Assembly (NCBI GenBank): GCA_029260025.1
Contig: JAJDDZ010000095.1
Location: forward strand, 1 to 37,965
Direction of reading: 5' to 3'
Source of the DNA: Phycisphaerae bacterium
GTDB lineage: Bacteria > Planctomycetota > Phycisphaerae > UBA1845
Length of the DNA stretch: 37,965 bases
The position numbers were made by a program, and so were the translations under genes. The notes below the pieces were generated by a model, which worked only from the letters and a program-made list of their open reading frames with translations, was not told where the DNA came from and searched no databases. Of the stretch, positions 25,028 to 27,958 are shown piece by piece (positions within the stretch are counted from its first letter, which is position 1; every line of letters starts with the position of its first letter).

Positions 25028-25126
25028 GGCTGCCTTGGCGACTTCATTTCTGTTGGTATACTCCCGCGCTGGGCGGTCTTGCTGAGCGATTGTCTCTACC
25101 GCGCCGCGATTCTGGGAGGTACCTCT

Positions 25127-25714
25127 GTGACCGATTACACATTTTTCGATCGAGCGATTCAGTCTATTGATGCCGCTAACGCGCAAGATCCTCGTACGGA
25201 ACTCGTTGATGGGGAGGCTCAACCGAAAGAGCTTTTGTTTGCTCAACGAGTGACGGGGTGGGTTTTGAAGCTGGTTGATGATCCGTCTGAGGCGCTGCTC
25301 CTATCGGCGCGGGGGCATACGATTCGTCGATGGAAGATTGCTCGGGATACTTATCCGAAAAACAAGATTGGGTATCGAGAATGGCGAAATGCGCTGGCGC
25401 AGTTTCATGCTGATGAGACGGCGGCGATTTTGCATGAGGTTGGATATGGTGATGAGATGATTTCGCAGGTTTCGGCGCTTATTTTGCGGAAAAATCTTCC
25501 GGGTGATGCGGAGGCGCATGCGCTTGAAGATGCGGATTGCCTTGTGTTTCTTGAAACGAAGCTCGCGGGGTATCTGGATGATTGGGGCGACGCTAAGACA
25601 ATTAATATTTTGCGCAAGACGGCGGCGAAGATGACTGCGGAGGGACTTGGGTTTGTTTCGAGTCTTGATTTGGATGCGCGTAGCCTGGAACTTGTTGAAA
25701 AGGCGACGAGCTAA
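25127..25714 (+). CDS. DUF4202 family protein
   Basis: The best start is the GTG at 25127, 6 bases after a GGGAGGT ribosome site (25114-25120); this gives 195 residues. The frame can be extended to a TTG at 25079, but without a ribosome site. TFFDRAIQSIDAANAQDP, ELLFAQRVTGWVLKL and ARGHTIRRWKIARDTYP open the protein. HADETAAILHEVGYGDEMI and ALEDADCLVFLETKLAGYL match the DUF4202 pattern of His and Asp residues, which suggests an HD-like metal-dependent helical fold. The function is uncharacterised. Its TAA overlaps the TAG of convergent selD by two bases. Confidence 0.85.
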   Translation: MTDYTFFDRAIQSIDAANAQDPRTELVDGEAQPKELLFAQRVTGWVLKLVDDPSEALLLSARGHTIRRWKIARDTYPKNKIGYREWRNALAQFHADETAAILHEVGYGDEMISQVSALILRKNLPGDAEAHALEDADCLVFLETKLAGYLDDWGDAKTINILRKTAAKMTAEGLGFVSSLDLDARSLELVEKATS

Positions 25715-26757
25715 ACCAAGATCACGGATTGCTGGGTCCTTGGGAGGCAACGGCCTATGATCGAGGAGGATTGGGTTTTGTTTTTCTTTAGGGCTGCTAC
25801 CAGGGCGTCTGCTTTTTCCTCTGCTACGGCGATCAGGAGGCCGCCTGAGGTTTGGGCATCTGCTAGGATGTTGACTAGCAATTGATCTACGCCGGTTGCT
25901 TTGAAACGGTCGCCCAGGGCTTCTATATTTGAGATGTAGGCGCGGGTTAGCATTTTCTTTTTGGCGAGGGCGAGGGTTTGCTCCAGGAGTGGTACCGCGT
26001 TTGCCTCTATCTCTATGGTGAGGTTGCTACCATCTGCCATTTCGCTTGCGTGACCGACTAGACCGAAGCCTGTGATGTCGGTTACGCCTTTGACGCCGAT
26101 CTGCTTGGCTGCTTCGCATGCGCCGGCGTTCAGGTCGGTCATGACATCTACTGCTTGCTGCAACTGTTCGACTGGGATTTTTCCGAGTTTGGCGGCGGAG
26201 GTTAGGATTCCGCTGCCGATTGGCTTACTTAGGACGAGGACGTCGCCGACTCTCGCCCCGTCGTTTGTCCAGATTTTCTCTGGATGAACGATGCCTGTGA
26301 CTGACAAACCGTATTTGATCTCGGCGTCTCGGACGCTATGCCCCCCCGCTGTCACTGCCTTGGCTGCGGTTACTCGCTCGGCGCCGCCTTTTAGGATCTC
26401 GCCTAGAATCTCTATGGGTAACTCGTCGTCTGGGAAGCCGACAATGTTGAGCGCGGAAATTGGTCGTCCGCCCATTGCGTAGACGTCGGAGAGGCTGTTG
26501 GCTGCGGCGATGCGGCCGAACTGGTAGGGGTCGTCTACCAGGGGTGGGAAGAAGTCTAGCGTAAGTACGAGCGCCGTCGTTTCGTCTAATCTGTAGACTC
26601 CAGCGTCGTCAAAGTGGTCTGTGCCTACTAGCAAGTTTGGGTCTGTTTGTTTGGGTAGATTGCGCAGAACCTGCGCTGTTGCTCCCATGGGGAGCTTTCC
26701 CGCTCAGCCCGCACAAGTTGCATAGTCTGTTAGTCTTTTTTTTCTACCGAATGCCAT
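25711..26757 (-). CDS. selD: selenide, water dikinase, predicted selenoprotein (in-frame TGA = Sec18)
   Basis: SelD makes selenophosphate from selenide and ATP for selenocysteine or selenouridine synthesis. The frame from the ATG at 26757 reads MAFGRKKRLTDYATCAG, then TGA (26706-26704), then AGKLPMGATAQVL and on through DPNLLVGTDHFDDAGVYRL, TLDFFPPLVDDPYQFGRIAA, AGGHSVRDAEIKYGL, DITGFGLVGHASEM and DAQTSGGLL. Codon 18 aligns with catalytic Cys17 of E. coli SelD (AGCGCK versus AG-U-AGK), and Lys21 matches its essential Lys20. Read through, the protein is 348 residues, normal length. A conventional caller would start at the internal ATG (26688) and lose the active site. No ribosome site is obvious. 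An A8 run in codons 5-8 is a possible slippage or sequencing risk. The stop overlaps the DUF4202 stop. Confidence 0.93.
26661..26703 (-). promoter_or_regulatory. candidate bacterial SECIS element of selD
   Basis: Directly after the TGA two hairpins can form in the mRNA. The near one is GCTCCC-CAT-GGGAGC, starting 9 bases after the TGA. The farther one is GCGCAG-GTT-CTGCGC, whose loop begins about 33 bases after the TGA and has G as its first base, which fits the published bacterial SECIS model (UGA-to-loop spacing of about 16-37, G among the first two loop bases). Which one binds SelB is not decidable here. Confidence 0.6.
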
Positions 26758-26935: not shown

Positions 26936-27958
26936 ATGAAGTGTGGAAACTTGATGCTTAAAGCTTCTTTTTTATCGTTGATGGTGGTCGTTGGCGCTTG
27001 CCCAGCGATGGGTCAGGATCTGGGTGCGCTGGCCAATGTGCGGGCTCGAGTTCGCCCGGTTTCACGTCATGTACCGCCGAATCGCCCCGTGATGGTCCAA
27101 TTTCTTTTGGAAAACACGGGCGGGGAAGCTGTGACTCTTTCTGTTCCGGGAACCGCTCCTGAGATTCCTTCGCCTGAGGCTGGTCTTCCGCTTAGCCATG
27201 TCTTCAGCGGGGGGAGGGAGGTTTCTGGTGTTACGGTGACGACTGAGGCGGGTCGTCCTTGGAATCGGCCTGCTGGGTTTCGTAAACCTGACCGTGCTGC
27301 GATTTTGATTTTGGGCGCTCATAGCGTTGTTGGGATTACTGTTGATCTTCGTGATTTCTTTCCTTCGCTTCGTGGGTCGGGTCGGTTTGGCGTGAAATGG
27401 GCACCCTATGGCGAAGCAATCGCGAGCGAAGAAGTCTTCATCGACGTGAAGCCTCGAAAGCAGGTCGAGATAACTCTCGATGAGGGGAAGCTGCTGATCG
27501 ATCTTTTCTATGACGACGCGCCTGCGCATGTCGCGAACTTTCTTGATCTTGCGTCTTCTGGGTTTTACACTGGGAAGAACTTTCACCGTAGCGTGCCGGG
27601 GTACATGATTCAGGGGGGCTGTCCGCGTGGCGACGGAAGCGGGATTCGTCTTGACGGGAACCGTCTCGCTGGCGAGCTGAACGAACATAAACACAACAAG
27701 GGGAGCGTTTCTATGGCGCTTCTTGATGACGATCCGAACTCTGGTAGTTCCCAATTCTTCATCACGAATACGCGTGTTAAGGAATGGGACGAGCAATACA
27801 CGATCTTTGGCGAGCTTTCCGGGGATGAGTCGCTTGCGACGCTTGACCGGTTGATGAAGCTTGAGGTTGATGACGAGGGGCGACCTACGAAGTCCGTTTA
27901 TATGAGGACTGTTCGTGTGATCGATGCTCCGTCAGCACGCCAATATGCCAGTCCGTAG
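26936..27958 (+). CDS. secreted cyclophilin-type peptidyl-prolyl isomerase with N-terminal extension
   Basis: This 340-residue protein has a signal peptide (LMLKASFLSLMVVVGACPAMGQ; cleavage after AMG, or lipidation at VGAC). Residues about 30-170 form a beta-rich, possibly immunoglobulin-like domain (VMVQFLLENTGGEAVTLSVP; VGITVDLRDFFPSLRGSGRF) of unknown role. The C-terminal cyclophilin domain (about 178-330) has APAHVANFLDLASSGFYTG, NFHRSVPGYMIQGGCPRGDG (catalytic Arg in FHR) and GSSQFFITN. It isomerises Xaa-Pro bonds in periplasmic or surface proteins. An alternative start at 26954 (Met7) is possible. It is divergent from selD, with about 180 bases between starts. Confidence 0.9.
   Translation: MKCGNLMLKASFLSLMVVVGACPAMGQDLGALANVRARVRPVSRHVPPNRPVMVQFLLENTGGEAVTLSVPGTAPEIPSPEAGLPLSHVFSGGREVSGVTVTTEAGRPWNRPAGFRKPDRAAILILGAHSVVGITVDLRDFFPSLRGSGRFGVKWAPYGEAIASEEVFIDVKPRKQVEITLDEGKLLIDLFYDDAPAHVANFLDLASSGFYTGKNFHRSVPGYMIQGGCPRGDGSGIRLDGNRLAGELNEHKHNKGSVSMALLDDDPNSGSSQFFITNTRVKEWDEQYTIFGELSGDESLATLDRLMKLEVDDEGRPTKSVYMRTVRVIDAPSARQYASP

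Follow-up and report, generated by a model that had tools for sequence, protein, structure and literature searches.

We propose that the selD gene of a Phycisphaerae bacterium encodes a functional selenocysteine (Sec)-containing selenophosphate synthetase, in which Sec is inserted at an in-frame UGA by SelB with the aid of a SECIS element (probability about 97%). The gene lies in a contig of 37,965 nucleotides (the window, i.e. the whole stretch of DNA analysed), and the features relevant to its coding sequence are the following:

25711..26757, minus strand: selD, proposed Sec-containing selenophosphate synthetase, 348 residues when read through the UGA, with AIRS and AIRS_C domains.
26706-26704, minus strand: in-frame TGA, codon 18, proposed Sec18 at the catalytic position, aligned with Cys17 of E. 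coli.
26695..26697, minus strand: AAG codon of the essential Lys21; invariant.
26713..26715, minus strand: codon of Cys15, which gives a CxxU motif.

The minus frame opens with an ATG at 26757, ends with a TAG (25713-25711) and contains a single internal stop; its translation reads MAFGRKKRLTDYATCAG*AGKLPMGATAQVL... and places the TGA at the same coordinates as an earlier note on this DNA. The claim of that note that SelD sequence stands on both sides of the TGA in one frame is borne out by the NCBIfam selD model TIGR00476 (a curated model with a cut-off of 125 bits), which gives a whole-length match to residues 8-315 with 375.4 bits (2e-112) when the TGA is read as a residue, and the AIRS and AIRS_C domains are both matched by the read-through product. 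The alignment with E. coli SelD (PDB code: 3u0o) spans residues 7-322; in it U18 is matched to the C of GAGCGCK, and Lys21, three residues further on, to the Lys of the same motif, just as had been claimed for the catalytic position and its Lys. Cys17 of E. coli SelD is the catalytic residue, and the Lys of GAGCGCK is essential. Both U18 and K21, situated in the N-terminal loop of SelD, are invariant, and Cys15 of the CxxU motif is invariant across 78 close Sec-SelD homologues.

The earlier note also expected that standard gene calling would truncate selD at an internal ATG, which holds as far as the list of open reading frames goes: the longest conventional ORF (25711-26688, 325 amino acids) does start there. 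This ORF is what speaks for the internal ATG at 26688 as the true start, with a working protein of 325 residues devoid of the active-site loop; such a product, however, would contain neither the catalytic residue nor Lys21, the N-terminus and the UGA are conserved, and the internal Met is replaced by Val, Leu, Gln or Ala in relatives. We therefore regard the shorter protein as very unlikely and retain the full-length, UGA-containing frame as the coding sequence. Two genes flank this frame. A gene for a cyclophilin-type peptidylprolyl isomerase (26936-27958) adjoins selD, and such a gene occupies this place in 11 further genomes of the family; the two genes are divergent in the window and in one of these genomes (L019). 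On the other side, a DUF4202 gene (25079-25714) is convergent with selD, the ends of the two overlapping by 4 bases; it was considered as a selenium gene and rejected, being found beside selD in the closest relative only.

A SelD match with an in-frame TGA was obtained in 90 of the 150 related genomes searched, and in all 85 loci in which the N-terminus could be read, the TGA is the corresponding codon. Planctomycetota genomes, many of them labelled Phycisphaerae, are the nearest named relatives, and the closest of these (89% identical) has the TGA as well. Among the named planctomycete loci, 79 of 80 carry TGA and the remaining one TGT, a proportion that is not an unbiased rate, since the loci were gathered partly with a pattern that spans the Sec site (the residue being written as Cys) and partly with a second pattern located elsewhere. 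The flanks LTDYASCAG (before U) and AGKLP (after U) are conserved and the starting Met is kept in most sequences. Some relatives have another Sec form that is more distant, LTQMT.AAG-U-A.K. Nearly all of the planctomycetes sampled have Sec in their SelD, a near-fixation that adds to what was known.

This conservation bears directly on a rival reading in which the TGA arose by an error of sequencing or assembly, or by a nonsense mutation in a selD of the Cys type. The draft genome that contains the window is fragmented (393 contigs), and errors of this kind may occur: selA of a relative (G001; L217:463-1812) has an in-frame TGA where the genome of the window has Gly, which is probably an error or a mutation because it is not a Cys position. 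The TGA of selD, by contrast, is shared by many separate assemblies (90/150 genomes, 79/80 named planctomycete loci) and both of its flanks remain conserved. Because independent assemblies share it, an error was rejected as an explanation, and we consider it extremely improbable; the TGA is a genuine feature of the gene.

The single TGT belongs to a Singulisphaera assembly (L176:1501-2544), where Cys replaces Sec in an otherwise Sec-type SelD. It is most simply understood as a Sec-to-Cys change, because the sequence is nested within the Sec clade (the nearest support in the tree being weak) and the genome retains selB. Some relatives (L103 and L104) possess, alongside a Sec-SelD, a long open frame of about 750 amino acids with a Cys-type SelD, which is probably the known oxidoreductase-SelD fusion.

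The earlier note predicted that selA, selB and selC should be present elsewhere in the genome, and all three were located in the assembly (4.13 Mb, 393 contigs, about 89% complete). The genes selA (573.6 bits) and selB (365.9 bits over the matched pieces) are adjacent on one contig (C104), selB being first, and a tRNA-Sec with anticodon TCA (66.1 bits) is on another (C195). Across the genomes searched, SelA is present in 81 of 90 with Sec-SelD versus 23 of 60 others (Fisher p 2e-11, uncorrected for relatedness). In several of these 23, the SelD is of the Cys type and sits in a long open frame; it is probably again the known oxidoreductase fusion. No clear SelA match was obtained in nine Sec-SelD genomes. 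Completeness is 87% or lower in eight of them; in the ninth, G004 (98%), selA may lie off the contig, because selB is close to the contig end and selA follows selB in the genome of the window. In eleven genomes of one family (f4), the selA match within a single open frame is split in two (about 1-259 and 267-453), a pattern that suggests an insertion within the protein.

Further selenoproteins had likewise been foreseen, and family searches, which give a lower bound, yielded at least nine additional candidates with TGA at redox-active positions in the same genome: four thioredoxin/peroxiredoxin-like (FYRGHW-U-RYC, FFSPG-U-PPC, TYRAYW-U-PFC and FASW-U-AGC), one deiodinase-like (GSYT-U-PPF), one GPx-like (NVASY-U-GLT), two AhpD-like (CHY-U) and one SelW-like (CMQ-U). 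The first six of these genes came from an AhpC-TSA search; each contains a single TGA, located at a redox motif. Downstream of the nine candidates there are hairpins compatible with SECIS geometry. Among those of the six AhpC-TSA genes, five have GG at the start of the loop, and the energies range from -5.3 to -9.9 kcal/mol, so that some miss the published limit of -7.5 kcal/mol. Within the window, a scan that compared codon usage before and after each TGA passed six sites (four inside the spans of other genes and two in an unassigned stretch), none of them resembling a selenoprotein motif. A search for the UXPK-star selenoprotein family gave matches under the family cut-off. In this about 89% complete genome, the selenouridine synthase gene ybbB was sought and not found, and no Sec-type formate dehydrogenase was seen, the matches to the formate dehydrogenase alpha subunit being under the cut-off and free of in-frame TGA.

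An in-frame TGA taken alone would also be compatible with UGA being an ordinary sense codon (Trp or Gly) in this organism, without any selenocysteine. Under such a reassignment, few genes would end in TGA and many would contain it, but the opposite is seen: TGA terminates 6 of the 18 window genes checked. In addition, the sole tRNA-Trp seen has the normal CCA anticodon, homologues have the catalytic Cys at the site of the SelD codon, nine other in-frame TGAs fall on Cys/Sec active sites, and both tRNA-Sec and SelB are present. Codon reassignment was rejected on the ground that TGA acts as a stop in window genes, and its chance of being correct is close to nil. Two hairpins can be drawn downstream of the UGA:

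26662..26676, minus strand: predicted bacterial SECIS hairpin GCGCAG-GUU-CUGCGC, with the apical loop 33 nt past the UGA.
26681..26695, minus strand: second hairpin GCUCCC-CAU-GGGAGC, nearer the UGA; its pairing is complete in 22 of 83 sequences.

The published bacterial SECIS model has a loop of 3-9 nt, a stem of 4-16 bp, a G in the first two loop positions, a distance of 16-37 nt from the UGA and an energy of at most -7.5 kcal/mol (PMC13188914). The 15-nt sequence GCGCAGGUUCUGCGC, with its 3-nt loop GUU, 6-bp stem, distance of 33 nt and energy of -8.0 kcal/mol, lies within every one of these constraints; 3.4% of random window positions score as well, and Rfam gave zero matches inside the window. 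Because the hairpin also encodes the conserved AQVLR, the decisive test holds the protein constant. Against synonymous shuffles drawn with the codon usage of each gene, pairing of the stem is superior in 80 of 83 sequences, with 5.6 of the 6 pairs formed on average versus 4.0 expected, and the hairpin codons GCG, CAG and CTG are kept at z values of 7.9, 5.9 and 8.4 relative to the genes' own usage, values that assume independent sequences although the genomes are related. The synonymous codons of the hairpin are held far beyond the need of the protein, i.e. a SECIS-like element is under selection. The nearer hairpin is somewhat favoured over synonymous shuffles.

In the standard mechanism, the SECIS is read by SelB and Sec is inserted. 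By analogy with the known families, from which both Sec incorporation and the catalytic chemistry are deduced here, SelB carrying Sec-tRNA-Sec would recognise the hairpin that lies shortly after the UGA of the selD mRNA, and Sec would be inserted at residue 18 in place of termination. Sec18 and Lys21, in the flexible N-terminal loop, would then help to convert selenide and ATP to selenophosphate, which SelA would use for the synthesis of Sec-tRNA-Sec. The enzyme would thus depend on its own product.

Catalogues that read TGA as a stop lose the SelD catalytic loop and interrupt at least nine further redox genes of this genome, and such annotation hides the use of selenium in planctomycetes. It is conceivable, if rather doubtful, that the Planctomycetota possess a large and little-described selenoprotein repertoire, with SelD fixed as a selenoprotein and maintained where both selenouridine synthase and a Sec-type formate dehydrogenase are lacking, and with the extra hairpin, between UGA and SECIS, tuning selD expression to selenium supply.

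The apical part of the SECIS of E. coli fdhF (sequence taken from MG1655) is almost the same as that of selD, UGCAGGUCUGCA as compared to the hairpin described here; in fdhF, however, the loop is about 18 nt past the UGA instead of 33 nt, and in selD a second hairpin can form between the UGA and the SECIS. A report on two Porphyra-associated planctomycetes (PMC4807772) describes, in the same phylum, a full set of Sec insertion genes and several selenoproteins, as in the present genome; both organisms have a 2-selenouridine synthase and one a Sec-type FdhA, neither of which was found here. Zhang et al. reported that the Sec-decoding bacteria without FdhA all have Sec-SelD and most also the selenouridine trait (PMC1794560). 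The genome of the window appears to fit Sec-SelD without FdhA, but without the selenouridine trait; showing the first part of this pattern without the second, it is a test case for what maintains the Sec trait. Sec-containing SelD as a bacterial selenoprotein and the use of Sec in planctomycetes are both already known (PMC1794560, PMC4561486, PMC4807772): Zhang et al. 2006 list 38 Sec-containing bacterial SelD (PMC1794560), and in the reference set of Mariotti et al. 2015, the Sec form accounts for 19% of the SelD proteins (PMC4561486). The SelD described here resembles the known Sec-containing bacterial forms in belonging to the same enzyme family, in having Sec at the same single position and the SECIS within the coding region, and in relying on the bacterial SelA/SelB/tRNA-Sec machinery. 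In contrast to E. coli SelD and the known Sec-SelD proteins, the planctomycete CAG-U-AGKLP has a Cys three residues before Sec and a Gly at the second Cys of E. coli, and, unlike in the known Sec-containing bacterial SelD, Sec is close to fixation in the sampled lineage. The new information consists of this near-fixation, the conservation of the SECIS and the selenoprotein candidates that occur together with it.
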